64,000 nt of DNA from the NCBI RefSeq assembly GCF_002994745.2, contig NC_037089.1:85584347-85648346 (forward strand). Reading direction: 5' to 3'. The position numbers and the translations under genes are program-made. This DNA is from Rosa chinensis (lineage: Eukaryota > Streptophyta > Magnoliopsida > Rosales > Rosaceae). Positions 23,001-58,240 of this stretch are shown piece after piece; position 1 is the stretch's first letter, and each line of letters opens with the position of its first letter. The notes under the pieces were generated by a model. It saw only the letters and a list, made by a program, of their open reading frames with translations, did not search any database and was not told the origin of the DNA.

Positions 23001-23780
23001 TGCTAGGAGTTTAGCAAATGCAGCGTTCCTTGTGGACAATAGCATGACATGTGACCAGCGTGTCGATGCATCAACCAATACCATAAAATATCGAAATGGT
23101 CCGCATGATGGTTGAATAGGTCCACAAATATCACCTTGGATTCTTTGCAAGAATGGTATATTTTCTTTAGTGTCCTTTGCATAGGATGGTCTCGATCCTA
23201 ACTTTGCTAAAGAGCAGGCTTTGCAGAACGAATGATGGGCTTTATAAACAACCAATGAGGATTTTGGTTGAGCCACAAAGGCACAAGTGACTTTAGAAGT
23301 AAAAGTTGGAGACAAAGGAGCCTTGGTGGCGTCAATGCCATCCTGAGGCCGCAGGGGGAAGGCGGCGCCGGCCAAGGATGGCCGGATTTGGGGGTGAACG
23401 GCGCCGTGAGGTGCAGGGGCTCCTTCGGTGTCCAAAAACCGAGTTTTACTTCTTTTCGTTCTGAAAAAGGGATGTCCGTGTGAAGTCTTTAATATACGGA
23501 TCATCATGTCACGACCTGGGTGTCCCAAACGGTCGTGCCAAAGCCTATATGTGTCGGAATCCCATAAATCATCTCTCATGACATGGTTGGATTCAATGAC
23601 TCGAATAGTGGTTGCATACAACCCACTAGAGTGACACATAAGTTTCTCTAAGACTCGTTTATGTCCGTAGTCATTAGAGGTAATGCAAAGGAACTCTTGT
23701 CCATTCTCACAATGCGTTTCCGCATGAAAACCATTGGTTCTTACATCGTGTAAGTAATAAAGTTCGAGAAATATGTCCAT
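20063..23780 (-). pseudogene. Copia 1 pol, frameshifted and lacking protease
   Basis: Open pieces at 23780-22419, 22350-21946, 22028-20574 and 20650-20063. In order they encode the pre-integrase motif (LWHDRLGHPGRDMM), the integrase core (GDICGP, RLDNAGEF), reverse transcriptase (AVYVDDMNLIGT) and RNase H (SWRSTKQTLVATSSNHAEI). Compared with Copia 2 the protease domain with its DSG site is absent. Frames break near 22350, 22000 and 20600, and a spacer of about 50 residues replaces a ~10-residue segment before AHHSFCKAC. It cannot encode a complete polyprotein. Confidence 0.88.
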
Positions 23781-24199
23781 GACATGAGATAAAATAAATC
23801 GATACTTTATTAATAATAGCCAATGATTACATCAAAGTTTCTTGACCAAAATCTAATCCAATATAAAAATCAAACCGTAGACAAATCGTAGTCACTCAAT
23901 CGTTTCGGTAATTTCAATTTAGTTGTGACCAGGTAAGGTAAGGCGAGATTTTGGTGGAGCGTTGCTCACTTTTAAAACCGTTCTCTCAGATCCAACCTTG
24001 CCTAGACATCACAAGTACTCTTGAGTACGCCTAGAGGGAAATAGTTAATACAATAAGTCATTTTATTGATTTAAGGCATAATAGCCATTACATAATTCTT
24101 GGAAAAATAAAAGACTATAAATAAAAATCTGCGGCATTTTGTCTTCATTGCCAGATTTAAAGTCTTTGTGATCTCGAAGTCTTGATCACCATGATGCGA

Positions 24200-25126
24200 C
24201 TACCTTCGTAGGTACATTGCAAGTTCAGGTCCATTGATCAGACGTTCCATATCAGAAATAGACACCATAAAGAGGATTCTCCCTTGATTGAGGCGCATTG
24301 GCGCAATGTGCATAGTCCCTAGGACTGGTGGCGTTGGAAAGTGATATCCATGGCCAACGTTGGCTCCATGGTTTCCAACCCTATGTCCCTCAAAATCACG
24401 CCTCCTACGGTCGTGTGATTGTCGCCTTGAGCGATTACCTTCTTGAGCATTTCGATCGTATGGATCATGACGTCTATGGCGACTTTCTCTAGCCATAGGA
24501 TGATGCTCTTGATAGCTATCTTGAAGCCTATCAAATCTTCTTTGCACAAGTTCATTGCCATGTCTTTCAGCAGTGGCCATAGCTTCAATAAGCTGTTGGA
24601 AACTTGTGATCCGTCTTGCATTTACATGAGTCCGGAATAAGTCAGAGGACCTCATAGCATAGACGGGGAAGGTATTGAGGGTTTTCTCAATCAATTGGTC
24701 TTCTGTGATTGTTTTTCCACAGAGACGCATCATTGCTCTGATGCTGAGAGCTTCCGAATAAAATTGCATGACAGTGTCAAATTTAGAGAAGCGAAGATCT
24801 TTCCATTCTGCTTCTGTATTCGGAAGTATGGAGTCACGAACATTGCCATATCGTTCGTGAAGCGCATGCCAAAGCTTTATGGCGCTATCCTCATTTATGA
24901 ACTCAAACTGTAGGTCACTATCCATGTGACGTTTCATGAAGGCAAGTGCCTTGGAATTATCTTTCTCAGTTTGAGGGTCTGGAGCTGTTTCTATAGGACA
25001 AAGCTCTTGGATAATATGCAATAAATCACGGGCAATAAGGTGGATCTCGATATCAATGACCCAAATTAAGTACCTTTTGCCTGCATAATCCAATGGAACA
25101 AAATCGAGTTTGTTCATGTTTGACAT
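24200..25126 (-). CDS. Copia 1 gag-like protein without zinc knuckle (308 aa)
   Basis: It starts MSNMNKLDFVPLDYAGKRYL and aligns with Copia 2 gag through the capsid-like UBN2 region (MKRHMDSDLQFEF, LWHALHERYGN, LIEKTLNTFP). It has a basic Arg-rich stretch at about 215-250. The CX2CX4HX4C knuckle present in Copia 2 is absent. The frame is intact, so it may still be made; RNA binding would have to rely on the basic tract. It is separated from pol by about 420 nt of non-coding sequence. Confidence 0.75.
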   Translation of the reverse strand: MSNMNKLDFVPLDYAGKRYLIWVIDIEIHLIARDLLHIIQELCPIETAPDPQTEKDNSKALAFMKRHMDSDLQFEFINEDSAIKLWHALHERYGNVRDSILPNTEAEWKDLRFSKFDTVMQFYSEALSIRAMMRLCGKTITEDQLIEKTLNTFPVYAMRSSDLFRTHVNARRITSFQQLIEAMATAERHGNELVQRRFDRLQDSYQEHHPMARESRHRRHDPYDRNAQEGNRSRRQSHDRRRRDFEGHRVGNHGANVGHGYHFPTPPVLGTMHIAPMRLNQGRILFMVSISDMERLINGPELAMYLRR

Positions 25127-36953: not shown

Positions 36954-37207
36954 TATACACTAGGAAAAGAGTTAAAATTGAACAAGACATTAATGGAAAG
37001 TTGGAAACTACCAAATACATCAGGATTCACGTGATCATCGAGTGATCTAGCATTAAATCATCGAGTGTTTGAGTTACAAATTTCACTAGTCTGCAGCCAA
37101 CATATTTGAGGCATATTTGAATTTGTGCGCCTGTGGTGGAGAATCGATCTCACTTTATTGGAATTCCTTAATGTAGCTCGACTAGAATATTAATTGAGTG
37201 AGTGGGT

Positions 37208-39165
37208 TGATGTCGCTCAAAGCAAGCGCGCAATTTAACCCTGAAATATCGTTAGTAGTATAAGCAAATAGGGATCGTTCTATCCGGGGATTGAGGGTAC
37301 ACTTGTAATTGTGAAACAAATAAAGAAAAGTATTATTTACAAAAATAAAATAAAGAATAAATATATACAAGTAAACACAAATAAGGGGGGATTAGGATTC
37401 TTAAAATTAAAATTAAAATAAATAAAATAAAGAAAACGTAAAAACATATATACAAGAGTGGAACGCAAGGAACAAAGATCAAAATCAATTCCATGTAATC
37501 AAATTCGATTCAAACCCTATAATTGTTCTTCCAAGTCATGAGAGAGGAGTTGATCATGTGAAACATTCGAAAGCAAATGATTTCCCATATTTTACTTTTC
37601 AATGCTAATTAACCTAAGCGAAAGCACCTAGATTAATCCTATCAAACATGCAATCAAGCCCCAGAAAGCTAGTCAATCATGACATGTTCAACGCATTAGA
37701 CATAGAGAAAGGCTATCAACTCAAGTGTACAACTTAGTTATGGAAAAGTCCACCTAATTGCAATCCTCTTCAATTAAATTCGATTCTTGTCCAGAACCTT
37801 TACTACTTTTGATTCAAGTTACACAAAACGAAAAGTCGATTTCATGTTCTTAAACCTAGCACCAATTACATGCAAATCCTATAAGTGTCGACCCAAATAA
37901 GATAAACATATAAAAGTTTTCTGTAAAGCAAATTTAATCGAACAAACTCACATAAGCAACTTAGAATCACAATTATAAAATTCGAAAACTTTATTTAAAC
38001 ATAGAAATTGGGCTTAAACTTTGCCCTAAACATTATTGTTAACTAGAAACAAGTTCATATGAATTCAAACAAGGAAAACAAAAGATCATTACAAGGAAAA
38101 AGAATGAATTACACCGTGAGGGGAGATGGAGATGGAGAGCTAGATGGTTGGATCTTGAATCTTGGAAGCAAGCCTTCAAGGTGGATGATGGAGGATATGA
38201 TCTTCACGGCTCCTTCTTCTTCTTCCTCTCCTTGCTTGAAACGTTGAATGCACTAGAGGATGGAGAGAAAAATGGAAAGGAAATGGAGAGACAAAGAAGA
38301 TGAGATGGATGAAGGAATTGGTGATTGAGAGTGAGAGGAGAAGGTGTTTAAATAGGGAAGAAAAAGAAGAGTGAAATGATGAGATGAAGAAAAATAATGA
38401 AAGTGGAGTATGAGAGTGGTTTGTAAAATATGTAAAAGATGAGGTAATGATGAAAGCAAAGCATGAAGGTGAAGAAATGTGGAAGTGATGATGATCTTTT
38501 AGGGTAGAAAAATTGTATCCAAGGAAAAAGAAATGCTTTCTTCATATGGGTGGGAAACATGAATATGTGGTGTTGAGCTGTTTTCAGGTCAGTTTCTTCC
38601 CCTTTATTCCTTCAATTATTTCTCCATCAAAACTTCAGAATGAGCCTTCGACTTCTTCATAAAAAATGTTCCACTATGAGTGTATATCATCCTCACAAAT
38701 TTTCAGAGCTTTATTCCATGTGGTTGGGCCGGAAATGCTGCTGGACCTCTTACAGGTCCAGTTTTCCGGTTTTGCTTCTGTAGAAAATTGGGCTGATTGT
38801 TTGAAGGCCTTCCACTCATATTTTTCTCTGGCACTCTTCATAAGAAATGATCCTTTGGGTGTCTAGAATGGATCTGGAGAGTTTCAGCTCATTTCGAGTT
38901 CATTTGGTCAGGTGGCCGCTCCTTCTTCCTTGCTTGGCTCTGATTCTCCTAGCCGGAGTAAGAAAATATTCAAGGTTGACTTTTTAGTGCATTTTCATTC
39001 TTCTCCATCATTTCTAGGTAATTATGGACGTAACACTCATTTCTTCTTCATCTACTCCAATGTACCTAAAAATAGAAATTAAGTTAAAAATCGATTCGTT
39101 AAGGAATAACTAAGCAAAATGTGAGGAATTAACATTTAAAATATCACATTAAAATGCGCCTATCA
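37208..39165 (-). repeat. LARD 3' LTR (1958 bp)
   Basis: TGATGTCGCT...CGCCTATCA. As far as I can read it matches the other LTR throughout except for the outer ~25 bp (37218-37240). A GA-rich purine segment at 38230-38460 is included. Open frames inside it are duplicated in both LTRs and resemble nothing. Confidence 0.93.
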
Positions 39166-39180
39166 AATTCCCCCACACTT
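39166..39180 (-). other. Polypurine tract of the LARD
   Basis: The minus strand reads AAGTGTGGGGGAATT directly before the 3' LTR. It would prime plus-strand synthesis. Similar tracts recur at about 40955 and 43155. Confidence 0.8.
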
Positions 39181-40950
39181 AGCTTTTGCTAGTCCCTTAG
39201 CAAAACAAAACAAAAAAATCCAAAACAGAACAAAGACTTGACAAAAAAGCAAGTAAATGACTCTATTGCTCCTAACTGTTGTCTCAGAGACTCCAAACTC
39301 ATGGCTTTCACGTTAAACACTTAATCAAAATCACAAAGATAATTCCATGGTTAATAAACCTGTGACATTCATATGACTAAGCAAGATATGGAGAACTTAA
39401 GTTATACAGTGAATGATAGCATGTTTCGAACAAGTCCAATCCAAACTTACAGGGCATACTCTCGATTTTTCTCTCAGAAATGGCTATGCTTAAAAGCTTC
39501 ACACTCAAGTATATGCAAGAGAACAAATTGTAAGGCAACAAACAGCTTGCATATTTCATCAATAAACACATTTTGTGAAGAATTTTTAAAGACCTCATGA
39601 AATGACTAAGTGCACAAATGGACCTAAACCATAAGCTCGACTGCGTAACTGACTCCACTAACCAAAGACTGCCCATCTCAAGGATCAAGTCAGCACTTAA
39701 AACAGGTTGTAATGGGGCTAAGCTAGGGTTTTCGAAATGAAGATTAAGGATACAAAAAAAATCCTAAGGAGCTAGCAGAGCATATAAGGACCACCTTATG
39801 TCATCATTTTTGTAGACCAAATATCATTGTTTTGGGCCAAACCTTCACTCTAACCAACATGGGGAATGGACAAAGGCATAATTTTCAACTTTGAGCCTTC
39901 TACAAATTTGCAAGTCCAAAACCACACTTCAACATTTTCCCAAGAGTTTTCTTTTCAATTTTTCTTCTCTTTTGCCGCTTTTCTTTCTTTCTTTCTTTTT
40001 TTTTTTTTTTTTCAAGGCAAATTTTTTTTTTTTTTCTTCTTCTTTTCTTGGATTTTCCCCACCCCACACTTGTCTTTCATCGTCACCCCTACATACTATG
40101 TCATGCTCTACTAAGTCCTTAAGACAAGGGTAGAGATATCCTGTACTAAGCTCATGGTAGGGTAGTGAGGGTGATGAAAAAAAAGTTTTCAACGTAGGCT
40201 CAAAGGGGTTCATTCTAAGGAGTCCCACGACGGGCACAATTGGGGACACATACTTGTTTGGCTTTGGTGGTTACCCTAATGCCTTCTATCCTATCCAGGA
40301 TCAGTGCATATTATGGCATACAAGTTTTGACAGTCACAACAGCCGAGTTCTAGTACTCTCTAGTCCATTAAAATCTATGGCACATAATCATTGGATTTTC
40401 AAAGAATGATGAGGTTTTGCAAATACAGCCACGAAATTCTGAAATTATCAATAAGCACTCAAAAAGAAAGTATTTTAGCTCAACAGCTCACTTGGGTCAA
40501 ATGAATCAGACTTAATCCTAGCATGCTTAATGAATCAAGTTACAATCCTATCTCAAATCTTCATACAAGCATCACAATGTCGATTAACCACAGAATTCAA
40601 TTAAGTTCTATTTTGATTATGAAAACCTTCGGCCATGAATTCAGAGACATGTTCATCCTAGACGTTTAGAAGCATCCTAAGACTCAAACAAACAAAAACA
40701 CTCTAAAACCAACATTTTTTTTTTTTTTTTTTTACAATTTAATTTAATTTCAACACTTAGGTACGGGAACAGGGAGTCTCGATGTGCAATGGGACTGAAA
40801 CAGCTACCCTTTTTCAAGACTATGTTTAATCCAATATACCTTAGTGTATCACAACATCAATTAAAAACACAATAAAAACACAATCCAACAACAACTATTT
40901 TTTTTTTTTTTTTTTTTATACTAACTACTAAAAACACAATAAAGCAATAA

Positions 40951-41204
40951 TCCTTCCCCCATACTTAATTCATGCATTGTCCTCAATGTATAACAAATAT
41001 AAAGCATGCAAAGCATAAATCAAGCATAGAAGAGAAAGTGAACACTACGAAACCTAAAACAACTTAAAATTCAAGAAAATAAAATAGAAGGAAGAGTTCA
41101 AGAAAGCAAATCTGCGTTTGATGTCTCCTCCACAGATACGGTTGAAATGGGTTGCCTCCCATGCAGCGCTTAATGTTTAAAGTCTCTCAGCCTAGACTTG
41201 TATC
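40951..41204 (-). repeat. Cassette-flanking direct repeat, copy A
   Basis: It runs from a polypurine-like CTTCCCCCATACTTA through GAAAGCAAATCTG to GGGTTGCCTCCCATGCAGCG. The same order recurs at 43151-43392. A poly-T run precedes both copies. Confidence 0.8.
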
Positions 41205-41209
41205 TCAAT

Positions 41210-41740
41210 TTACTCCTTTGGAGGAGCGGTGTGCGGGCGAGTGGCAGCCCTCTTGCTGGTTTCAGCCTTCGGAGGTGGGTCCTCATGTTGTGATGCAGTA
41301 GCGTCCTTGCGAGGAAACCCAGGAGGATAACTCTGCAAGTTATTGACTTCCTGAGCAAGCTTGTTTATTGCAGTGTGACAGCGGATCAAAGAGCAGTTCA
41401 TCTCAGAGATGTAATCGATCATGCAATTGACTCTCCAATCTGTCACCATAATACCATCGCGGAGAGAGGAACGCAAATCATCAATCGAATCCGACAAGCT
41501 TTCCAGGGTGGCCATAGGCCGAGGAGCATGAGCAGCTGGTGAGGAAGAAGACTCTCCGGGATGCAGTCTGGGAGAGCGACGAGGCAGAGGAGGGGGACTG
41601 CGGGTACGCTCACGGATAGGACGATGGTCCCATGGACGAGTAAGCCCAGCTCTAGTGGCCGCTTGACGACCTTCTTCCTCCAAAGAGAGAACACGGCGTT
41701 GATTGACACCCCTGCGAGGGGTTACCTTGGTTCGAGCCAT
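41210..41740 (-). CDS. LARD sense ORF, unknown protein (176 aa)
   Basis: It lies on the element's sense strand. I start it at 41740 (MARTKVTPRRGVNQRR), which follows CTTCCTC and gives the compact protein; the frame is open to 41857. It is rich in Arg, Pro and Ser (RSPPPLPRRSPRLHPGESSS) to residue ~75, with a helical-looking middle (LESLSDSIDDLRSSLRDGI) and a basic tail. It resembles none of the retroelement proteins. The first residues ARTK match the histone H3 tail, which may be chance. It is divergent to the WUS-like gene, about 600 bp apart. It could be an extra ORF as found in Ty3/Tat elements, or captured plant sequence. Confidence 0.5.
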   Translation of the reverse strand: MARTKVTPRRGVNQRRVLSLEEEGRQAATRAGLTRPWDHRPIRERTRSPPPLPRRSPRLHPGESSSSPAAHAPRPMATLESLSDSIDDLRSSLRDGIMVTDWRVNCMIDYISEMNCSLIRCHTAINKLAQEVNNLQSYPPGFPRKDATASQHEDPPPKAETSKRAATRPHTAPPKE

Positions 41741-41920
41741 GAGGAAGTAGAAGGAATTTGAAACTGCACGCTTTAGACAAACTTTAGTAATATCTGGAGG
41801 AGACAAAAAAGGATGTATATGTAAAGCACAAAATAGGGTAGAAATCTCAACAGGCACACGGTTTTAACAAAGCTTCTCCGGGAAGGAGAAGAGTTATGAT
41901 AGTTCACGGCCCAAGAAACT

Positions 41921-42118
41921 CCCCCACGTGTAAATATTCCTTTCTTTTCCTGGATTTATGGCATGCTTTCGGCTATAGCTTGTCTGTCACGGATCCTCGA
42001 GATTCGTTTGATTCCCCCACGCGTCCTTTCTTTTCCTTGATTCACGGCAATTAAACCTGCTTTCGGCTGTAGCTTATCTGTCACAGCTCCTCGAGATCAG
42101 TTTGGTTCCCCCACGTGT
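41921..42118 (+). promoter_or_regulatory. 93-bp tandem repeat with G-box-like motifs upstream of WUS-like gene
   Basis: CCCCCACGTGT at 41921-41931, CCCCCACGCGT at 42014-42024 and CCCCCACGTGT at 42108-42118, spaced 93-94 bp. Each of the first two is followed by TTTCTTTTCCT, CTTTCGGCT(A/G)TAGCTT and TCCTCGAGAT. CACGTG is the plant G-box for bZIP/bHLH factors. The repeats lie between the two divergent ORFs. Confidence 0.7.
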
Positions 42119-42225
42119 CCTTCACGAGCCAACAGCTTTTCCGTGTTTTCGGGTGACTTTAATCCAACGCGTAGATTTAATCTCAGAGATCGTCGATCCA
42201 ATGGTGGAGATATGCTTACTCGTTC

Positions 42226-42234
42226 TATAAATAG
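42226..42234 (+). promoter_or_regulatory. TATA box of WUS-like gene
   Basis: TATAAATAG, 114 nt upstream of the ATG at 42348. It predicts transcription from about 42258 and a leader of ~90 nt with CT-rich sequence. Confidence 0.6.
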
Positions 42235-42347
42235 GTGCATTCTGAGGGAGCGACTGTACACTCCAACAGAAAATTCTTCCGAGTTCCAGCATTTCTCTCT
42301 CAATCCTTCAGCCTTTCTTTCAAAACTCAATTCCTTTCTTCATCAAC

Positions 42348-42935
42348 ATGGAACCACAAACTCTGCAACTAATGGAGCAACAGACCCAGCAACAAATCGA
42401 GGATGGAGGAAACAACCAAGCAGCCGGGACTAATAACCGGTGGGCTCCCACACCGCCTCAACTAAGAATCCTCAAGGGCCTTTATTATGATAAGGGTTTT
42501 AAGTACCCAACTCCAGAGCAGATTCAAGAGATCTGCCTCCATCTGAAACAGTATGGGCAGATCGAGGACAAAAACGTCTTCTTTTGGTTCCAGAACCTCA
42601 AGGCTCGTGAGAGGCAGAAGTTGAAGGAATTTCGGAACGTTCCGGTTGGTGGATCTCTCGATCTCAATTTTGGATCCACTAGTTCCACTGATGATGGTAG
42701 ATCCATTGATCTAAACTTTGGGTCACGTGTCGGCTATGGTGTTGATGGATCGATCATGGAACAACGAGGAGAATATCACCAGGAGATTGAAACCCTTCCA
42801 CTATTCCCCATGCATGGTGAGGACATCTTGGGCAACATGAAGACTACTTCCGAGGGAGGTGGCGGTTATGGCGGTGGCTCTCACATTTCCCTTGAGCTCA
42901 GCCTCAACTCCTACGGAGATGCAGACATGGCTTAG
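42348..42935 (+). CDS. WUS: WUSCHEL-like homeodomain protein inside the LARD (195 aa)
   Basis: WUS-type proteins are nuclear transcription factors controlling stem-cell fate. Visible: a WOX homeodomain at about 31-95 ([18 protein letters not shown] ... [16 protein letters not shown]), two DLNFGS motifs (105-110, 121-126), a WUS box TLPLFPMH (149-156) and a C-terminal EAR-like LELSL (182-186). WUS box plus EAR places it in the WUS clade. The frame is intact and intronless, although plant WUS genes have introns, so it may derive from spliced RNA; no poly(A) tail follows (the 3' side is T-rich). It is shorter than typical WUS (~290 aa), and helix 3 has QNLKARE where WOX proteins usually have QNHKARE. 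It is antisense to the element, with its own TATA box. Expression is unknown. Confidence 0.88.
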
Positions 42936-43150
42936 TATAGTGTATAAAGTTTTTTTTGTTTTTTTTTTGTTTTTTTTGTTTTTTTTTTTTGTTTTTTGTT
43001 TTTTTGTTTTTAGTTTTTTTTTTTTTTGTAAATAGCTGACTTTAATAAGACAGAATGAATGCAGTTTTTTTTTTTTTTTTTAATATAATGGACTCAAAAA
43101 TAAAAGACAAATATATATATAGGACTCAAAATGAAAGACAAAAATATAAA

Positions 43151-43392
43151 TCTCTTCCCCCACACTTAAATATTGCATTATCTTCAATGTAATCAATTAA
43201 AAGCGTGCAATGAAATAAGTAAGCATAGATAGAAGACATTTACGAAAACAAATCCTAAAATAAAAACAATAGAGAAAAAATGAAAAATAAAAAGAAATAG
43301 GGAAAGAGAAAGCAAATCTGATTATATTCTGAATTGGGTTGCCTCCCAAGTAGCGCTTGGATTTTACGTCTTGCAGCCAGACGATACCTACA
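43151..43392 (-). repeat. Cassette-flanking direct repeat, copy B
   Basis: CTTCCCCCACACTTA ... GAAAGCAAATCTG ... GGGTTGCCTCCCAAGTAGCG, diverged from copy A. Together they bracket the ORF/WUS cassette at 41205-43150. Confidence 0.8.
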
Positions 43393-44153
43393 TTAAATAA
43401 AGTTAGTAACTATAATTAACAAAGAAATACAAAATAAAAACAAGTATAACTATTAATTACAAACTACAAGTAAAATTAACAAGTATATTGTACATAAGAC
43501 ACAAGTTAAGTATACAAGTGACTATAAAACGTGAAAAGTATTTTTACAAGTTTAAAGTGTGAAACAACAAAATAATTTACACGTATAGAGTATTCACAAG
43601 TATTTCTTTTATTATAAACATTATTGATATCGAATCAAATTCCAAGCGGTAAATCAAGTGGACGTGCGGCCCAAGTATAGTCGCCTAGACACAAACTCCC
43701 TTTCAAATCGTTTGGGCAACCTTACTGAAATGGCCAGGTGGGGGAGGACGAACACGAGAGGAAAAATCCATTTTGGCATGAGCTACTCCCACATTGTGGT
43801 TTATGCCCATTTGCAAGCACTTCTGGATTCAAAAACCCGTCATGAACGTTGTCCCCTTCCTAGACACCATTCCACATAGGCTATGCTTACTAAGATGAAA
43901 AAGTTCATAAGTGTGAAGACAGTTCAACAAGTGTTAATAAAGGCCGCCCTCAACCTTAAGGGACCTGAGCTAGGTACCAATAAGGGGTTTAGGCCAATAT
44001 TAACAAAAGAGACTTCACCTATTCCTCTCAATTTACAACCTACAATTAAAATTCATGTTCAATAATATAAATAAAATTTAAACTAAGTTTTAAACAATTT
44101 ATATACAACAAATATATACAATAAATGATACAATTTAGCAAGTGATTTTTCAA

Positions 44154-44171
44154 TCCCCGGCAACGGCGCCA
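44154..44171 (-). other. Primer-binding site, tRNA-Asp type
   Basis: TCCCCGGCAACGGCGCCA on the plus strand is identical to the 3' end of plant tRNA-Asp including CCA, so the element RNA can pair with that tRNA. It is 5 nt from the 5' LTR. Confidence 0.9.
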
Positions 44172-44176
44172 AAAAT

Positions 44177-46133
44177 TGATGTCGCTTTTGGGAGCGCATA
44201 ATTTAACCCTGAAATATCGTTAGTAGTATAAGCAAATAGGGATCGTTCTATCCGGGGATTGAGGGTACACTTGTAATTGTGAAACAAATAAAGAAAAGTA
44301 TTATTTACAAAAATAAAATAAAGAATAAATATATACAAGTAAACACAAATAAGGGGGGATTAGGATTCTTAAAATTAAAATTAAAATAAATAAAATAAAG
44401 AAAACGTAAAAACATATATACAAGAGTGGAACGCAAGGAACAAAGATCAAAATCAATTCCATGTAATCAAATTCGATTCAAACCCTATAATTGTTCTTCC
44501 AAGTCATGAGAGAGGAGTTGATCATGTGAAACATTCGAAAGCAAATGATTTCCCATATTTTACTTTTCAATGCTAATTAACCTAAGCGAAAGCACCTAGA
44601 TTAATCCTATCAAACATGCAATCAAGCCCCAGAAAGCTAGTCAATCATGACATGTTCAACGCATTAGACATAGAGAAAGGCTATCAACTCAAGTGTACAA
44701 CTTAGTTATGGAAAAGTCCACCTAATTGCAATCCTCTTCAATTAAATTCGATTCTTGTCCAGAACCTTTACTACTTTTGATTCAAGTTACACAAAACGAA
44801 AAGTCGATTTCATGTTCTTAAACCTAGCACCAATTACATGCAAATCCTATAAGTGTCGACCCAAATAAGATAAACATATAAAAGTTTTCTGTAAAGCAAA
44901 TTTAATCGAACAAACTCACATAAGCAACTTAGAATCACAATTATAAAATTCGAAAACTTTATTTAAACATAGAAATTGGGCTTAAACTTTGCCCTAAACA
45001 TTATTGTTAACTAGAAACAAGTTCATATGAATTCAAACAAGGAAAACAAAAGATCATTACAAGGAAAAAGAATGAATTACACCGTGAGGGGAGATGGAGA
45101 TGGAGAGCTAGATGGTTGGATCTTGAATCTTGGAAGCAAGCCTTCAAGGTGGATGATGGAGGATATGATCTTCACGGCTCCTTCTTCTTCTTCCTCTCCT
45201 TGCTTGAAACGTTGAATGCACTAGAGGATGGAGAGAAAAATGGAAAGGAAATGGAGAGACAAAGAAGATGAGATGGATGAAGGAATTGGTGATTGAGAGT
45301 GAGAGGAGAAGGTGTTTAAATAGGGAAGAAAAAGAAGAGTGAAATGATGAGATGAAGAAAAATAATGAAAGTGGAGTATGAGAGTGGTTTGTAAAATATG
45401 TAAAAGATGAGGTAATGATGAAAGCAAAGCATGAAGGTGAAGAAATGTGGAAGTGATGATGATCTTTTAGGGTAGAAAAATTGTATCCAAGGAAAAAGAA
45501 ATGCTTTCTTCATATGGGTGGGAAACATGAATATGTGGTGTTGAGCTGTTTTCAGGTCAGTTTCTTCCCCTTTATTCCTTCAATTATTTCTCCATCAAAA
45601 CTTCAGAATGAGCCTTCGACTTCTTCATAAAAAATGTTCCACTATGAGTGTATATCATCCTCACAAATTTTCAGAGCTTTATTCCATGTGGTTGGGCCGG
45701 AAATGCTGCTGGACCTCTTACAGGTCCAGTTTTCCGGTTTTGCTTCTGTAGAAAATTGGGCTGATTGTTTGAAGGCCTTCCACTCATATTTTTCTCTGGC
45801 ACTCTTCATAAGAAATGATCCTTTGGGTGTCTAGAATGGATCTGGAGAGTTTCAGCTCATTTCGAGTTCATTTGGTCAGGTGGCCGCTCCTTCTTCCTTG
45901 CTTGGCTCTGATTCTCCTAGCCGGAGTAAGAAAATATTCAAGGTTGACTTTTTAGTGCATTTTCATTCTTCTCCATCATTTCTAGGTAATTATGGACGTA
46001 ACACTCATTTCTTCTTCATCTACTCCAATGTACCTAAAAATAGAAATTAAGTTAAAAATCGATTCGTTAAGGAATAACTAAGCAAAATGTGAGGAATTAA
46101 CATTTAAAATATCACATTAAAATGCGCCTATCA
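44177..46133 (-). repeat. LARD 5' LTR (1957 bp)
   Basis: The partner of 37208-39165, next to the tRNA-Asp primer-binding site. Its inner end reads TGATGTCGCTTTTGGGAGCG, where the other LTR has TGATGTCGCTCAAAGCAAGC. Confidence 0.93.
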
Positions 46134-46740
46134 TGGGTGTACTTCGAATTCTAACTTAGTAACGTAATTGAAGTAGTTTGCCTCTCTCAAGCGATAAAAA
46201 GAATAAAAATAGAATATGTTACAAATCATTATCATATAATATAGTAGGGTAATCCTTCAATAAATGGAATGGTAGAATTTGAATTTAAAATCACATTCCA
46301 AATTCCAAAATGAAACCATAAATAGGTATATAATCCATCTTTTGATCTCCGAGAGAATCTTGCGTAGGGCACCCGCACGGGACATTTGGTGGGGAGGACC
46401 AATTACTGTCTAGTAAGGGGGTGTTTTGGATATTGCAGGGCAGTTTCAGAAAAGATGAAAAATTTGCTTGCTTCTGATTGGATGGCCGTAAGGCCACGTG
46501 GCGGGAAACCCCACCTAAGTATTTTTCTTGATCTCCTGGCTTTTGCAAAATTGGGTTTGTTTATTTATGTCTCTTGTCTCATATGGGGTTCGTGAAACTT
46601 ACAGGGCATGCTAAAACCCACTTGACCGTTTCTTCTCCTCCCCAAACTCCGGTTTTCATTTCCTGCAATTCTCCAGTTTCGCAGTTTGCTTCTAAAACAG
46701 ACTCAAAGTTTGTGAAAGGTTTTAGTTGATAAACCAAAGC
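46134..46740. other. Spacer and promoter region of SCC1 5'-half, copy 2
   Basis: This matches 4725-4935 and then 6190-6364 of copy 1. The part at about 46345-46540 is absent from copy 1, apparently by recombination between TTGATCTCC repeats (46343 and 46528). No gene is seen. Confidence 0.55.
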
Positions 46741-50137: not shown

Positions 50138-51559
50138 ATGGCGTGGTGTAGACGGCGGTGTATTGCGATGTTGGGAGATTTTGCAACTAGAAAAACAGCG
50201 GCGGCAGCAACGTCAATGATAGCAAGCAACTGGGAGAAGGAGACGAAGAAAATTAGCATGTTTTCTGAATTAATCAGAAGAAATTCTACTACTTTATCAC
50301 CACTTATGGCAGAGGAGAAAGACAAGAAAGGAACCATGAAAGAAGAAATATTGAAGAGTAAGTCTCTCTACTTATGTTTTGAGGAGCAGATAACTTGTTG
50401 TAACATTGCTCACGTTATTCAATCTATCGAATTGAGCCACGTGTTGGCAGCACCAACTGATGGTGATCATTGCCGCGATGAACTTAAGTTAGTTGAAGTT
50501 GCTTATAGATTCGGACCGGACACTTATGTTCCCCGCATGATGAGCAATAGTGTCATCGGCTCCAAAATTATTTTCTCCGGTGGCGTGGTTTTTAACAGAA
50601 ATGAAAGCGATAGTAATGGAATGCCCGAGATGATTTTAAGTAAAGAAGTTTGTGCGTTTGAGACAGATCCAAGTGTAGATCTGAACCCGACATTGCAGCC
50701 CTCCCAAGCATTTAAGACTAGTAGACCCGATCCCTTCCTAGTAGAGGTAGCCGGCGAACTATATTGTTTCGGCGGCCCATGTTACTCCGGGTCCTTCGAG
50801 GTATTTGACAAGACACATGAAAAATGGTTGCCTCTGGATGTGCCTCCTCAGAGATATCCCTACAGGGACATCTGTCATGCAATTTTAGGAAACAAAATGT
50901 TACTTTGGGTAAAAAATCAGACCGGAGTATTCGGGTTTGACGTCACTCAACCTGGAAAAGGATGGACAGAGTTGGCCTCTTGTTTGGGAAGCTGCATTCC
51001 CTGTTTTAATGGTTATGATCAACTATTTGTCAAGTTGAAGTCTCATCGTGGTGATGGTTTTCTAATGTTCTCCTGTAATTTAGAACAACCTCAGACTGTT
51101 AGAGTCTTTCAAATTTCACATGAATGTGATTCTATGAAACCTATGGAATCTCTGCAGCTGCCAAAATTGCCTCATCAATTTCCTGTACCAACACGATGTC
51201 AGTTTTTTCATCTAGAAGATAATAAAGTCGGCCTTGTTTTCTTCCGTGACCGTCGTGAGTATTTTTATGAGGATTATGATTATTTTTCTCCTGGTGATGA
51301 TGATGACGATGATGATGATGAGGATGATGTGAACCAGGAAGAGCAGGGGGAGGAAGAGGAAGAGGAGGAGGAGGAGGAGGAGGAGGAGGATGTTAGCAGG
51401 GTGAGAACTCTTGTCATAATATTCGAATACGAAATTGCGGAGAAATCCATGGACATCAAGTACAAGCTGCTCACCACTCGCTGCCTGGAATACTCTACCC
51501 ACCCTCCTGAAGAAGGTACGATCACGAGTTCAACCCTTATTGGCGCTTATGTGATCTAA
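50138..51559 (+). CDS. Kelch-like protein with acidic C-terminal tract, copy 2 (473 aa)
   Basis: The duplicate of the kelch-like gene at 10218, with the same single-exon frame and termini (MAWCRRRCIA ... TLIGAYVI). Kelch-like segments GSKIIFSGGVVFN and ELYCFGGPCYSGSFEVFDKT are kept. Differences include a replaced segment after FNRNES (SNGMPEMILSKE against TPPPKTTLSKE), an added residue in PYRDICHAI and an acidic Glu run about ten residues shorter. Many substitutions but no stop suggest selection on the protein. The function is unknown. Confidence 0.75.
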   Translation: MAWCRRRCIAMLGDFATRKTAAAATSMIASNWEKETKKISMFSELIRRNSTTLSPLMAEEKDKKGTMKEEILKSKSLYLCFEEQITCCNIAHVIQSIELSHVLAAPTDGDHCRDELKLVEVAYRFGPDTYVPRMMSNSVIGSKIIFSGGVVFNRNESDSNGMPEMILSKEVCAFETDPSVDLNPTLQPSQAFKTSRPDPFLVEVAGELYCFGGPCYSGSFEVFDKTHEKWLPLDVPPQRYPYRDICHAILGNKMLLWVKNQTGVFGFDVTQPGKGWTELASCLGSCIPCFNGYDQLFVKLKSHRGDGFLMFSCNLEQPQTVRVFQISHECDSMKPMESLQLPKLPHQFPVPTRCQFFHLEDNKVGLVFFRDRREYFYEDYDYFSPGDDDDDDDDEDDVNQEEQGEEEEEEEEEEEEEDVSRVRTLVIIFEYEIAEKSMDIKYKLLTTRCLEYSTHPPEEGTITSSTLIGAYVI

Positions 51560-52977: not shown

Positions 52978-55900
52978 TCATGAGAGTTCGGATAATCTTC
53001 TTAATCCGATACTCTTCACATGTTTCTCGAAAGGGGTTTTTGGTAACGACTTAGTAAATAAGTCCGCTACATTATCCTCTGATCGGATTTGATTTACTTC
53101 AATGTTTAGAAGTGTTTGCTGTTGCTGATTGTAGAAGAATTTCGGTGATATATGTTTAGTATTGTCACCCTTGATAAAACCTAATTTCATTTGCTCAATA
53201 CAAGCTGCATTATCTTCGTAAATGCATGTAGGTTTATCTGTGGTTAACTTCAAACCACAAGTTCCTCGAATGTGTCTATTTATAGACCTTAGCCATATGC
53301 ATTCACGCACAGCTTCATGTAGAGCAATAATCTCTGCATGATTTGAGGAAGTAGCGACAAGTGTCTGTTTTGTAGATCTCCAAGATATCGCCGTGCTTCC
53401 CATGGTAAAGACATAACCTGTTTGGGAGCGACCTTTATGAGGGTCAGAGAGATACCCTGCATCAGCAAAGCCCATCAAAACATTATTTTTATTTTGATGG
53501 AGGGGAGGAGGAGAACGTCGGTCACCATGGATGGTGTTGCCGACGTCTGTATTACGGAAGGTGGCTTTTTGCCTCATAGGGTCTGATCCCAATCTTCCGT
53601 CTTTTATTTTCTCTCTGTAGGGATAAAACAAGCCCATATCAATCGTACCTTTTAAGTATCGAAAGATTGTCTTTATGCCAATCCAATGGCGGCGTGTTGG
53701 CGCAGAACTATGTCGAGCTAACAAGTTCACTGCGAATGAGATATCTGGTCTTGTGCATTGTGCTAAATACAATAATGCGCCTATCGCACTTAGATAGGGT
53801 ACTTCAGCCTCTAATAATTCTTCGTCCTCATCCTTTGGACGAAACGGATCTTTTGTGGGCTCAAGACTTCGGCCGATCATGGGAGTACTTACAGGCTTTG
53901 CTTTATCTTCATTAAAGCGCCTTAGTAATTTTTGAGTATATGCTGACTGATGGATCATAATCCCATCACTACGGTGCTCGAGTTCTATTCCGAGGCAAAA
54001 CCGTGTTTTCCCAAGATCTTTCATCTCAAACTCGGATTCCAAATATTTAGCAGTTTCCTTTAACTCATCTAGAGTTCCAATTAGGTTCATGTCATCGACA
54101 TAAACTGCTACAATTGCAAATCCGGAACTTGTTCTTTTAATGAACACGCAAGGGCATATTTCATTGTTAATATATCCCTTTCCAATCAAGTAGTCACTTA
54201 GACGGTTATACCACATCCGTCCGGATTGTTTCAATCCATATAGTGAGCGTCTTAATTTTATTGAAAACGCGCTCCGTGGTTTAGAGCCACTTGATTTTGG
54301 TAATTGAAGTCCATCAGGAACCTTCATATATATCTCTGAATCTAGATCCCCATAGAGATATGCTGTAATTACATCCATAAGCTGCATGTCAAGTTTTTCG
54401 GAAACTACCAAACTGACAAGGTAGCGGAACGTTATAATGTCCATTACGGGAGAGTATGTCTCCTCGTAGTCGATTCCAGGGCGTTGTGAGAAACCTTGCG
54501 CCACGAGGCGGGCTTTATATCTCATCACCTCATTTTTCTCATTACGTTTTCTAACAAAGACCCATTTATGGCCAACAGGCTTTATATTTGGTGGTGTCAG
54601 CATTATAGGCCCAAATACCTGTCTCTTTGTTAGTGAATCCAATTCAGTCTGGATCGCATTTTTCCATTTAGGCCAATCCGCTCTTCGTTGACATTCTTCA
54701 ACAGAGCGAGGTTCGATATCATCATATTCTATGATTCCTTTTGCAACATGATATGCAAACGCATCATCAATTGCCATAGAATTTCTATCCATCATCTCAT
54801 ATACATTATTGTAATTTATGGAGATTTCTCTATTCTCTGGAGTTGGTTCTGACATTGGAGCGTCCCCCAATGGTGTCTCTTGGACATAACCATAATCCGG
54901 AATATTCTCGTGGGATGGATTATTCATATCTATGATTAATGGATTATTATTTTGTGCCAAATTCGCCTTCTTTCTTGGGCGAGAATCCATCGAACCTATA
55001 GGTCTCCCGCGCTTCCTGGCAGGAGCCGTGGGCCTAGCCAATGTGTCACCCATAGAGGGAACGTTGGCGCCATTCTCATGTATTTTTGAGACGGCATTAT
55101 GTCTTTTAGGGACATCAATCCTTGCAGGTGTATTTGCAGCAGGTATGTGTGATCTTGTCACTTTAGCGATATCAGAAAACGCATCAGGCATCGATTCTGC
55201 TACGTTCTGAAGATCGAGAATTCTCTGCACTTCTTTTTCAGATTGTGCAGTTCGGGGATCAAGATGAGACAAAGTGGGGACAAACCACGACAATTCTTGT
55301 CCTTTTTGTTGAACATTAGTTATGTTCATGTCTCCCCCTAAAGACGGGAAGACTGTCTCATCAAAGTGACAATCCGCAAATCTAGCGGTAAATAGATCAC
55401 CTGTCAAGGGTTCTATGTAGCGGATTATGGTTGGAGAGTCATAGCCAACATAAAGGCCTAATCGTCTTTGAGGACCCATTTTAGTGCGCTGTGGTGGCGC
55501 AATTGGCACATAGACTGCACACCCAAATATGCGTAAATGTGAGACATTAGGCTCATACCCAGTCACCATCTGGGATGCAGAAAAAGGTTGGGTGGCAGTG
55601 GGCCTTAGACGAATAAGCACAGCTGCATGTAATATTGCATAGCCCCAAGCAGAAATAGGGAGATTGGTGCGCATAACCAATGCCCTAGCAACCATTTGAA
55701 GTCTTTTAATGGCAGCTTCTGCGAGACCATTTTGGGTATGTACATGAGGGACAGGGTGTTCAACCTCGATCCCAATGGACATGCAATAATCATCAAAAGT
55801 TTTTGATGTAAACTCCCCAGCATTGTCAAGACGAATTGACTTAATAGGATGATCAGGGTGGTGAGCCCTTAACTTAATGATTTGTGCTAGGAGTTTAGCA

Positions 55901-56730
55901 AATGCAGCATTTCTTGTGGATAAGAGCACGACATGTGACCAACGTGTCGATGCATCAACCAACACCATAAAATATCTAAATGGTCCGCAAGTTGGATGGA
56001 TAGGTCCACAGATATCACCTTGTATTCTTTGCAAGAATGGTATATTTTCTTTAATGTCTTTTGCATAGGATGGTCTCGATCCTACTTTTGCTAAAGAGCA
56101 AGCTTTGCAAAACGAATGATATGCTTTAGAAGTAATTCTTTGAACCTCTTTTTGGTTCGTATTCCTCTTTGTTTTAAAGAATGGATGTCCGTGTGAAGTT
56201 TTTAATATACGGATCATCATATCACGACCTGGGTGTCCCAAACGGTCGTGCCAAAGCCTGTATGTGTCGGAATCCCATAAATTTTCATTCATGACATGGT
56301 TGGATTCAATGACTCTAATAGTGGTTGCGTACAATCCACTAGAGCGACACATGAGTTTCTCTAATACTCGTGTATTTCCGTAGTTATTAGAGGTGATGTA
56401 AAGGAACTCTTGTCCATTCTCACAATGTGTTTTCACATGAAGATCATTGGCTCTTATATCTTTAAAACTTAATAGGGTTCTTCCAGCCCTTGGAGCATAT
56501 AAAGCTTCGGCGACATTAATATTTGTGCCATTCGGCAATAGAAATTGAGCTGGTCCACGACCATGAATCAATTTAGATGGTCCTGCCATCGTGGTCACTG
56601 AAGATTGACTAGGCGTCATCCATAAGAATAATTGCCTATGTCGTAATATAGTATGTGTGGTGCCACTATCTAGAAGGCATTCCAATTCTCCCGGAGACAT
56701 ACTGAAAAATAAAGTTCGGAATATTAACAC
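52978..56730 (-). CDS. Copia 2 pol polyprotein (1250 aa)
   Basis: One open frame with the Copia domain order. The aspartic protease site is CLLDSGTTHTIL (residue ~18-29). The GAG pre-integrase zinc-binding region follows (WHDRLGHPG ... SFCKACSLAK). Integrase shows GDICGP, RLDNAGEF and NGLAEAAI, carrying the D, D and E residues. Reverse transcriptase has KARLVAQGFSQRPGIDYEET and AVYVDDMNLIGT with the YVDD core. RNase H has GFADAGYLSD, SNHAEIIALHEA and CIYEDNAA. Integrase before reverse transcriptase defines Ty1/Copia. A splice-acceptor-like TTATTTTTCAG precedes ATGTCTCCGGGAG, so the true start may be at 56700 or be spliced. Confidence 0.93.
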   Translation of the reverse strand: MLIFRTLFFSMSPGELECLLDSGTTHTILRHRQLFLWMTPSQSSVTTMAGPSKLIHGRGPAQFLLPNGTNINVAEALYAPRAGRTLLSFKDIRANDLHVKTHCENGQEFLYITSNNYGNTRVLEKLMCRSSGLYATTIRVIESNHVMNENLWDSDTYRLWHDRLGHPGRDMMIRILKTSHGHPFFKTKRNTNQKEVQRITSKAYHSFCKACSLAKVGSRPSYAKDIKENIPFLQRIQGDICGPIHPTCGPFRYFMVLVDASTRWSHVVLLSTRNAAFAKLLAQIIKLRAHHPDHPIKSIRLDNAGEFTSKTFDDYCMSIGIEVEHPVPHVHTQNGLAEAAIKRLQMVARALVMRTNLPISAWGYAILHAAVLIRLRPTATQPFSASQMVTGYEPNVSHLRIFGCAVYVPIAPPQRTKMGPQRRLGLYVGYDSPTIIRYIEPLTGDLFTARFADCHFDETVFPSLGGDMNITNVQQKGQELSWFVPTLSHLDPRTAQSEKEVQRILDLQNVAESMPDAFSDIAKVTRSHIPAANTPARIDVPKRHNAVSKIHENGANVPSMGDTLARPTAPARKRGRPIGSMDSRPRKKANLAQNNNPLIIDMNNPSHENIPDYGYVQETPLGDAPMSEPTPENREISINYNNVYEMMDRNSMAIDDAFAYHVAKGIIEYDDIEPRSVEECQRRADWPKWKNAIQTELDSLTKRQVFGPIMLTPPNIKPVGHKWVFVRKRNEKNEVMRYKARLVAQGFSQRPGIDYEETYSPVMDIITFRYLVSLVVSEKLDMQLMDVITAYLYGDLDSEIYMKVPDGLQLPKSSGSKPRSAFSIKLRRSLYGLKQSGRMWYNRLSDYLIGKGYINNEICPCVFIKRTSSGFAIVAVYVDDMNLIGTLDELKETAKYLESEFEMKDLGKTRFCLGIELEHRSDGIMIHQSAYTQKLLRRFNEDKAKPVSTPMIGRSLEPTKDPFRPKDEDEELLEAEVPYLSAIGALLYLAQCTRPDISFAVNLLARHSSAPTRRHWIGIKTIFRYLKGTIDMGLFYPYREKIKDGRLGSDPMRQKATFRNTDVGNTIHGDRRSPPPLHQNKNNVLMGFADAGYLSDPHKGRSQTGYVFTMGSTAISWRSTKQTLVATSSNHAEIIALHEAVRECIWLRSINRHIRGTCGLKLTTDKPTCIYEDNAACIEQMKLGFIKGDNTKHISPKFFYNQQQQTLLNIEVNQIRSEDNVADLFTKSLPKTPFEKHVKSIGLRRLSELS

Positions 56731-57049
56731 ATGTCAATGACATTGATAATGCGATACTTTATTAATAGGGAAAATAGTCAATGATTACATCAAAGTTTCC
56801 AAAGTTTATTCCAATATAAAATCAAACTTTATACAAATTGTAATTGCTCAATCCGTTTGGTAATTTCAATAAAATATGACCAGGTAAGTATAGAGATGTT
56901 GGTGGAGCGAGGCTCGCTTAAGTACCATGATCTCAATTACTTGCCTAGACATCATACTTCATTGAGTACGCCACATAAGAAAGAGTCAATACAATTGTTA
57001 TTTGACTAAGGCACATTTGCCGTTTTATTGGAAAACAGAAAAGACTATT

Positions 57050-58240
57050 TTAATCAAAGTCTGCGGCATCCTCGTGCTCTTCATTTCCAGCTTTGAAGTC
57101 TTTTATGGTGAGAATTACATCTTCACCATCATCTTTTTCAGCAAGGTGAGCTTCTTGCTCCCTCATTTCCCTGTACTCCTTGTAGCTTGCAGCTAGTTGT
57201 GTACTTGCTTGGCATTGCTTAAACCAATGCTCGATTGATCCACACCTATGACACACGTCATTGTGGTTGACTTTCTTTATTTGAGGTGCACGTTGTGGAT
57301 ATTCCCTAGGCGGGTTGTTGCTGCTACTACCACGGCGTATTATGCGACTTCCACGGCCCATAGTGTTACGGCCCATGGTGTTGTTATATTCTCCTCTCCC
57401 ACGTGTGGATTTGCCACCACGTGTGCCCGCTCCAAAGTTGCGGTTTCCTTCCTTATTGGGGCGGTTGTATGGACCCATGCGTCCGTCATGTCCCTTGTTA
57501 GGGTATACATGCCCCTTATTAGTAGGGTACCGCTCCTTGCGCCCTTTCTTGGTTGCATTATAATTCGCCTCACGAACGCTTTTGGTTCCTACGGGCCTTG
57601 AATTATAATTCTTTACAAGGATATTGTCGTGCTTCTCATCTACCGACAAAATATTGATAAGTTCATTGAACTTAGTAAGTCGTCCAGCATTATATTCAGT
57701 GCGATATTGCTTTGATAGTATAATTGCTGCGACGGGGAAGGTGGAGAGAGTCTTCTCAATCAGTTCTTCTTCTGTGAGAGGTTTTTCACAGAACTTCAGC
57801 ATGGCTCTTAGCCGAAGAGCTTCTGAATTGTATTCAGCAACAGACTTGAAGTCGGAGAAGCGTAAATTGTTCCATTGAATCTTCAAGTCAGGGAGGAGGG
57901 AATCTTGGATATTATCAAAGCGCTCTTCTAGCGCTACCCATAGTTCCCTTGCATCTTTGATGGACATATACTCCAATCTGAGTGCTTTGTCCATATGGCG
58001 TCGCATCAAGATAATTGCTTGTGCATGCTTTATGGGTGTTCGTTGGAACACAAGGCCCGCGTTTGGTGCCTGGATTATGGGCAATATCCCTTTTGATGTG
58101 AGATGGTTCTCAACGTCGGTTCTCCAACTGTGGTAATCCGAACCAGTTGAGTCAAGGATTTGAAAATCGAGTCTAGGTTCATTCGACATCCTTGAAATAT
58201 AAGAAAAAGATGTATTAGTTTCGGAGTTTAAAACTTCCAC
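57050..58240 (-). CDS. Copia 2 gag (396 aa)
   Basis: A capsid-like UBN2 region is visible (MRRHMDKALRLEYMSIKDAR, LWVALEERFDNIQDSLLP, LIEKTLSTFP), then a long Gly/Arg/Asn-rich linker and one zinc knuckle CHRCGSIEHWFKQC (CX2CX4HX4C) near residue 330, then an acidic tail. By analogy with Copia 1 the start may be the internal MSNEPRLDF at residue 18. It ends in a stop about 320 nt before the pol frame. Confidence 0.9.
   Translation of the reverse strand: MEVLNSETNTSFSYISRMSNEPRLDFQILDSTGSDYHSWRTDVENHLTSKGILPIIQAPNAGLVFQRTPIKHAQAIILMRRHMDKALRLEYMSIKDARELWVALEERFDNIQDSLLPDLKIQWNNLRFSDFKSVAEYNSEALRLRAMLKFCEKPLTEEELIEKTLSTFPVAAIILSKQYRTEYNAGRLTKFNELINILSVDEKHDNILVKNYNSRPVGTKSVREANYNATKKGRKERYPTNKGHVYPNKGHDGRMGPYNRPNKEGNRNFGAGTRGGKSTRGRGEYNNTMGRNTMGRGSRIIRRGSSSNNPPREYPQRAPQIKKVNHNDVCHRCGSIEHWFKQCQASTQLAASYKEYREMREQEAHLAEKDDGEDVILTIKDFKAGNEEHEDAADFD

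Follow-up and report, generated by a model that had tools for sequence, protein, structure and literature searches.

Background

Large retrotransposon derivatives (LARDs) and other non-autonomous long terminal repeat (LTR) elements are long, possess LTRs, a primer binding site (PBS) and a polypurine tract (PPT), and lack gag-pol. Here we describe an element at positions 37208-46133 of a 64,000-nucleotide stretch of Rosa chinensis DNA (RefSeq assembly GCF_002994745.2, contig NC_037089.1, forward-strand positions 85,584,347 to 85,648,346; the whole stretch is called the window below) that carries a gene related to the stem-cell regulator WUSCHEL (WUS). We regard it as probable, on balance of the evidence given here, that roses harbour here a non-autonomous LTR retrotransposon with recent activity, which carries an antisense WUS copy under its own promoter and is probably of the Ty3/gypsy Athila/Tat type. 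The putative antisense accessory gene probably serves the element.

The closest described systems are the aORF-3R genes of Tat-lineage elements, namely gene23 of maize Grande and its counterparts in rice RIRE2 and Silene Retand (passages of PMC7264820 and PMC11963269). The rose element resembles these gypsy-type elements, as there described, in carrying an antisense gene in its internal region and in most of its copies. Further likely points of likeness in the same passages are an own promoter, which has been shown for Grande, and a nuclear or DNA-binding role, which is suspected (PMC7264820, PMC11963269). Host-like domains within LTR families form a second group of relatives: passages of PMC9289625 report an AlkB m6A demethylase in Gypsy elements of Phalaenopsis, a B3 transcription-factor domain in elements of Aegilops tauschii and a LONELY GUY-type domain in Citrus elements, and maize Bs1 is grouped with such families. 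Like these families, the rose element combines LTRs with a functional domain of host-like kind, which in one of those cases is also a transcription-factor DNA-binding domain. The homeobox is not named in these passages of PMC9289625, and the accessible parts of a 2026 review on gene capture (PMC13317346) gave no match for homeobox, Rosa or WUSCHEL. No published description of the rose element was found in the literature searched, which lay mostly outside subscription journals.

Structure and direction of the element

The initial annotation had placed a pair of LTRs with a target site duplication (TSD), a PBS and a PPT at 37208-46133, and these bounds proved exact on re-reading. The backbone of the element consists of the following features.

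37203..37207, no strand: left copy of the target site duplication TGGGT (right copy read at 46134-46138)
37208..39165, minus strand: 3' LTR of the element (left in the window), 1958 bp, from the LTR alignment
39166..39178, minus strand: polypurine tract GTGTGGGGGAATT, adjoining the left LTR, read in the sequence; it fixes the direction of the element
41143..41171, minus strand: motif AAGCGCTGCATGGGAGGCAACCC..., second copy at 43330-43358, a repeat family within the window
43340..44152, minus strand: conserved leader, situated between the PBS and the 3' end of the WUS gene, diversity 0.014-0.024
44153..44171, minus strand: primer binding site TGGCGCCGTTGCCGGGGAT, read in the sequence
44177..46133, minus strand: 5' LTR of the element (right in the window), 1957 bp, from the LTR alignment

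The window thus contains an LTR retrotransposon, with two LTRs, a TSD, a PBS next to the 5' LTR and a PPT next to the 3' LTR. The LTR starts with TGATGTCG and ends with CCTATCA (termini of the TG...CA type), and the pair shows 2 mismatches in 1941 aligned bases. The initial ~17 bases differ between the LTRs (37208-37231 versus 44177-44199) and lie outside the alignment, the remainder being 99.9% identical; the differing starts perhaps go back to a local rearrangement or to gene conversion at the LTR end. As PBS and PPT both lie on the minus strand, the element reads from right to left, and the WUS gene on the plus strand is therefore antisense to it, an orientation absent from the initial annotation.

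The PBS TGGCGCCGTTGCCGGGGAT is complementary to what we take to be the 3' end of tRNA-Asp. A tRNA-Asp PBS is listed for 6% of plant elements in the part of PMC6317226 consulted.

No open reading frame (ORF) of gag-pol size was detected in the window copy or in 20 further copies (ORFs of at least 130 codons), which agrees with the earlier claim that gag and pol are missing, and a reverse transcriptase or integrase ORF was present in none of these 21 copies. A Pfam scan of the window copy gave no match above threshold for ten stop-free frames of its internal region. Of the longest-spaced LTR pair seen (C1:60764117-60781760), 9.5 kb were read, and they contained two copies, both non-autonomous and oriented opposite to each other.

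Two copies of the sequence AAGCGCT..TGGGAGGCAACCC (41143-41171 and 43330-43358) bracket the block of the WUS gene and a second frame, ORF1, and their minus-strand frame reads KRYLGGNP. This motif may correspond to the end-of-pol motif of Athila/Tat elements, which it resembles. Its duplication hints at a fused or internally deleted ancestor.

The antisense WUS gene, its predicted promoter and ORF1

An open WUS-like gene of 195 codons with homeodomain, WUS box and EAR motif had been proposed, and all three were located in the ORF. The description of the element as protein-less apart from this gene was wrong, since a sense ORF of 176 codons lies to the left of it in the window and is intact in 18 of the 21 copies.

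41210..41740, minus strand: ORF1, 176 amino acids (aa), sense to the element, intact in 18/21 copies, no recognised domain
41880..42347, plus strand: predicted WUS promoter and 5' leader, with repeats spaced by 86 bp that contain CCCCCACG(T/C)G, and the TATA box TTCTATAAATAG (TATA at 42226)
42348..42935, plus strand: retro-WUS ORF, 195 aa, antisense to the element, from ORF call, Pfam and structure match
42435..42617, plus strand: WUS-type homeodomain, residues 30-90 (Pfam PF00046, 6ry3)
42792..42815, plus strand: WUS box TLPLFPMH, present in 13/13 complete frames of the WUS-blind samples described below
42888..42908, plus strand: EAR-type motif SLELSLN, likewise present in 13/13 of these frames

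The WUS ORF matched the Pfam Homeodomain with E=6.8e-11, and its best match among solved structures was Arabidopsis WUSCHEL (6ry3, E=4.6e-22). By homeodomain, WUS box, EAR motif and tree placement the predicted protein belongs to the WUS clade. The copies keep homeodomain, WUS box and EAR motif, and much of the central region is gone. When 20 chosen proteins were compared (R. chinensis, R. rugosa, Fragaria, Argentina, Prunus and Malus), no variation was seen in the core of the EAR motif or in the majority of WUS-box columns, and the linker was scrambled. With loose patterns for both motifs, 54 of 67 Rosa-type database proteins contained WUS box and EAR motif, one or both being missing in 13/67. 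The linker between homeodomain and WUS box (window 42348-42935; P0026, P0029, P0009) contains a 12-residue unit in varying number, the number differing by subfamily; this unit resembles GGSIxxNFGS of Argentina WUS.

Upstream of the ORF, the TATA box at 42226 is identical in 19/19 aligned copies. The sequence CCCCCACG occurs three times in a promoter stretch of 603 bp compared with 0.00 in 300 shuffles, and among the motifs tested only CACGTG and CCCCCACG were enriched there.

ORF1 had no Pfam match above threshold. Its relatives in the protein database numbered six, of which two name an organism, in both cases Rosa chinensis, and its structure model was of low confidence (pLDDT 60, pTM 0.27).

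Genomic copies, insertion age and published rose WOX genes

Genome searches revealed many copies of the WUS frame and many candidates for the leader and the LTR, so that the window copy is not the only one. The WUS-frame query (window 42258-42842, in frame, starting 30 codons upstream of the ORF and ending 30 codons short of its end) returned 690 first-look candidates and 165 matches from the 150 scored, with 11 rows containing a stop among the matches listed, most of which sit on C2. The LTR search gave 5815 and the leader search 2424 first-look candidates, 40 being scored in each case; first-look candidates are not equivalent to validated copies.

For a closer analysis 21 long copies were used, consisting of the window and 20 stretches chosen for WUS and read. 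Exact 5-bp TSDs flank 15 of the 21 (the window and 14 of the 20 others). LTR divergence in these 15 is 0-0.43%, with zero mismatches in six (gaps not counted). If rates of 1.3e-8 and 7e-9 per site and year are assumed, the insertions date to between 0 and ~0.3 My. The mobile-element nature of the 15 TSD-bearing copies is certain, and the recent movement together with the cargo that had been deduced from the window LTRs is borne out by them. Three copies on C7 (15790549, 15797557 and 15804567) are spaced by 7008 and 7010 bp, which suggests that recombination has produced a tandem array of the form LTR-internal-LTR-internal.

These copies bear on a published expansion of the WOX family. The sections available of Duan et al. 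2024 (PMC11405225) report 381 rose WOX genes, 364 of them in the rose-only clades I-V and 226 of the 381 on chromosome 2; for R. multiflora the number given is 170 and for R. rugosa 105. By eye, the motifs published for clade V agree with the element ORF, and the bias towards chromosome 2 recurs in the WUS-frame matches listed here; in contrast to our account, these sections report the clades as gene-family expansion and leave its cause unsettled. The main text of PMC11405225 does not mention LTR, retrotransposon or 'transpos'. Section 4.1 suggests whole-genome duplication and calls for more evidence, and ordinary growth of the WOX family by whole-genome or segmental duplication would then account for the copies. 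The same study, however, found zero collinear genes within rose, and in 15 of the 21 long copies the gene lies between near-identical LTRs with TSDs, which rules out host gene duplication as the source of the copies examined; as a general explanation its probability is practically nil. For the greater part, the 364 WOX genes confined to rose are probably element cargo. If they are, rose WOX gene counts, promoter surveys and expression studies need correction.

Origin of the WUS gene

A tree of 49 proteins placed all 30 Rosa sequences in one clade (support 100/97) that lies within Rosoideae WUS (100/100) and in which R. rugosa and R. chinensis are intermingled, and a second tree of 24 proteins was concordant (96/99 and 100/99); both trees were built without the host WUS protein of R. 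chinensis, and a location in LTR elements is established only for the window-like ones among the database proteins. By this placement, the cargo is a descendant of Rosoideae WUS. A truncated WUSCHEL-like protein of Fragaria vesca (P0158, 174 aa) falls outside the Rosa clade, so WUS duplicates are not restricted to Rosa.

A genome search with Fragaria WUS revealed one host-like locus, C2:11711808-11713110, in two blocks of 91% and 80% identity; the interruption between them exceeds by ~420 bases what the missing residues need. Six longer WUS copies are continuous across this interruption, five of them with stops. The interrupted host locus, the continuous copies and the tree together point to an RNA-mediated capture that preceded the separation of the two rose lineages. 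The interruption falls within residues 132-167 of host WUS; as the shorter window protein lacks most of these, it is by itself no proof of intron loss. Long continuous WUS copies at C2:65617194-65618057, C3:26487936, C5:87694367 (stops) and C7:66187991 (no stop) are closer to full-length WUS than the window family is.

Retention of WUS in copies chosen without regard to WUS

The WUS copies of both picked sets were taken from a list ranked by similarity, in which rows without a stop made up 20/20 and 19/20 of those chosen. With stops all but excluded by this choice, the complete frames of the picked copies (40 of 41) carry no weight as evidence, and two WUS-blind samples were therefore drawn, with places chosen by LTR (n=18) and by leader (n=14).

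Among the 18 places chosen from the 40 scored LTR matches, seven contained WUS sequence (four complete frames, one open but cut by the end of the stretch, one with an early stop and one fragment) and eleven contained none. Ten of these eleven were examined, and in 10/10 the LTR end judged to be the right-hand one had no adjoining internal sequence or PBS. These ten fit solo LTRs, the side of the LTR being deduced from the match end. The leader search had 39 matches besides the window; five known WUS-bearing elements were set aside, leaving 34 places listed, of which 14 were read. A complete WUS frame was found in 9/14, an early stop in 1/14 and fragments in 2/14. Antisense WUS sequence is accordingly present in the majority of copies, namely 12/14 leader-chosen elements and all 21 long copies, the latter having been selected for WUS. 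Excluded from the counts are L006, without a match on the strand searched, and L007, a duplicate of L029.

Selection on the reading frames

Event counting in the alignment of 19 long copies (the 21 minus L020 and L021), with P values from simulation, yielded a dN/dS of 0.40 for WUS (P=0.005), of 0.07 for its homeodomain (P=0.002) and of 0.53 for ORF1 (P=0.012), compared with 0.84-1.46 for six controls from other frames, the other strand and the leader. Codon models gave an omega of 0.53 for WUS (40 picked copies; 2dlnL ~16.3), one of 0.22 for the homeodomain (16 distinct rows; 2dlnL ~9.9) and one of 0.66 for ORF1 (19 copies; 2dlnL ~4.2), each compared with omega 1; kappa was not optimised in these models, three values of it being compared with omega fixed at 1. 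In the 13 complete frames of the WUS-blind samples the homeodomain omega was 0.43 (2dlnL 4.39), and event counts favoured constraint (P=0.004 overall, P=0.033 for the homeodomain). All six nonsynonymous homeodomain variants of the 40 copies were singletons, and four of the nine synonymous ones were shared. Codon-level constraint is frame-specific, strongest in the homeodomain and weaker in the WUS-blind sample. A dN/dS of about 1, considered in the initial annotation, was rejected in the large sample and only in part in the WUS-blind one.

Diversity was 0.014-0.037 in the leader, in ORF1 and in the N-terminal part of WUS with the homeodomain. The C-terminal half of WUS had values of 0.045-0.075, and the 3' region reached 0.157. 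Together with a dS of 0.168 (dN 0.070) between one copy (L059) and the window, the diversity of the 3' region indicates source lineages older than the insertions. The WUS copies combine, in mosaic fashion, a small number of types for each of the N-terminal, middle and C-terminal parts, which suggests recombination; recombination among copies weakens tree-based tests.

The constraint also bears on the proposal that the antisense unit acts as RNA, with double-stranded RNA or transcriptional interference tuning the element and the protein incidental. The conserved TATA box and the repeated G-box-like motif would suit such a role, and antisense RNA functions have been proposed for such elements in passages of PMC7264820; the constraint, however, tracks the codon positions of the WUS frame, which an RNA function does not predict, and we consider this explanation highly improbable.

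Several observations weigh against a selected WUS protein in an active element. The 40 copies behind the strongest omega were picked by hand from a list ranked by similarity to the window protein and were nearly always free of stops. For the whole gene, the WUS-blind omega of 0.71 (13 complete frames; 2dlnL 3.25) is not significantly below 1, and the nonsynonymous share is 0.48 in shared variants and 0.49 in singletons (40 copies), contrary to simple expectation. The C-terminal half of WUS is no less variable than nearby non-coding stretches. No WUS was present in the 1-kb stretch read for 2/14 leader-chosen elements, and 2/14 held fragments only. As the insertions are very young, open frames alone prove little. 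TTAATGG, TTAATSS, TGAATGA and TAAT, which we take to be WUS target motifs, are not enriched in the LTR, so that self-regulation through the LTR has no support here. An autonomous partner of the element was not found. Finally, section 4.2 of PMC11405225, the one source of expression data encountered, describes 359 of the 364 rose-specific WOX genes as almost silent during rooting.

Much of this would fit a neutral passenger: a non-autonomous element that spread successfully would have trapped a WUS retrocopy, which would be intact only because the copies are young progeny of few sources. LTR ages near zero, the whole-gene omega in the WUS-blind sample, the near silence of these genes in rooting in the parts of PMC11405225 cited, and the occurrence of WUS-less and truncated copies are all in its favour. 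The source lineages are old in relation to the insertions, however (diversity to 0.157; dS 0.17 between the window and L059), yet their frames are open and length changes are in frame; constraint is seen in the true frames only, and both motifs survive in 13/13 complete WUS-blind frames. We consider a neutral passenger unlikely. Protein-level constraint on WUS is likely, and the WUS-blind sample does not settle it.

Possible mode of action

WUS recruits a TOPLESS-type corepressor through its WUS box and EAR motif. The reading we favour, an antisense WUS gene that serves its element, could proceed as follows. WUS would have been captured by the element through RNA, and the element would be moved in trans by an autonomous relative. 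The gene may be transcribed from its own TATA promoter, by analogy with gene23 of maize Grande. The predicted protein could bind DNA via its homeodomain and recruit a TOPLESS-type corepressor via WUS box and EAR motif, and lineages keeping the protein would spread better. Should the protein be active, the rose genome would contain a large number of mobile repressors of the stem-cell type.

The regulatory effect on the host that the initial annotation considered gains no support from these results and would be hypothetical. Two further proposals are more specific. Scattered over the genome, the WUS copies could modulate the host WUS pathway in a dominant-negative way or through dosage, with some of them domesticated. 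The retention of homeodomain, WUS box and EAR motif with loss of much of the central region would be compatible with this, as would five clade I-V genes, potentially element copies, that reached counts above 10 in at least three rooting stages according to the parts of PMC11405225 cited. On the other hand, most copies are nearly silent in the rooting series; we consider the proposal improbable. It is also rather unlikely, though less so, that the element keeps a stem-cell regulator because it profits from the protein. The protein might maintain or enlarge the WUS-type stem-cell state from which the germ line is supplied; alternatively, it might repress, in those cells, either genes of the silencing machinery or the antisense promoter of the element itself. 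If true, this would be a selfish developmental regulator, a plant counterpart of a transforming retrovirus, recently active in roses.

Other features of the window

Two copia-type elements lie outside the element described here. In the first, at 20577-25126, gag, integrase and RVT_2 each occupy an ORF of their own; the second, at 52981-58240 on the minus strand, has a pol frame of 1250 aa and a gag-like ORF slightly under the Pfam cut-off. Two plus-strand ORFs at 10218-11666 (482 aa) and 50138-51559 (473 aa) had no Pfam match at E 0.001.

Comparison with known systems

Unlike LARDs, the rose element carries two ORFs with codon-level constraint. The host-like domains described in passages of PMC9289625 were found from the reverse transcriptase outward, whereas the rose cargo, a developmental regulator that is nearly complete, resides in an element of 9 kb that has no reverse transcriptase; a screen based on that enzyme, as in PMC9289625, would miss such an element. 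The aORF-3R proteins, in the passages of PMC7264820 and PMC11963269 cited above, have no clear host relative and often contain a TRP28 domain, in contrast to the recognisable WUS homologue of the rose element. The rose copies read are without gag-pol, so there is no pol against which to set the position of the gene, which in aORF-3R lies between pol and the 3' LTR. The origin and function of antisense accessory genes had been obscure (as stated in a passage of PMC7264820); the rose case has a clear origin, and because the ancestor of its cargo is among the best-studied plant regulators, its function is testable with existing WUS assays.

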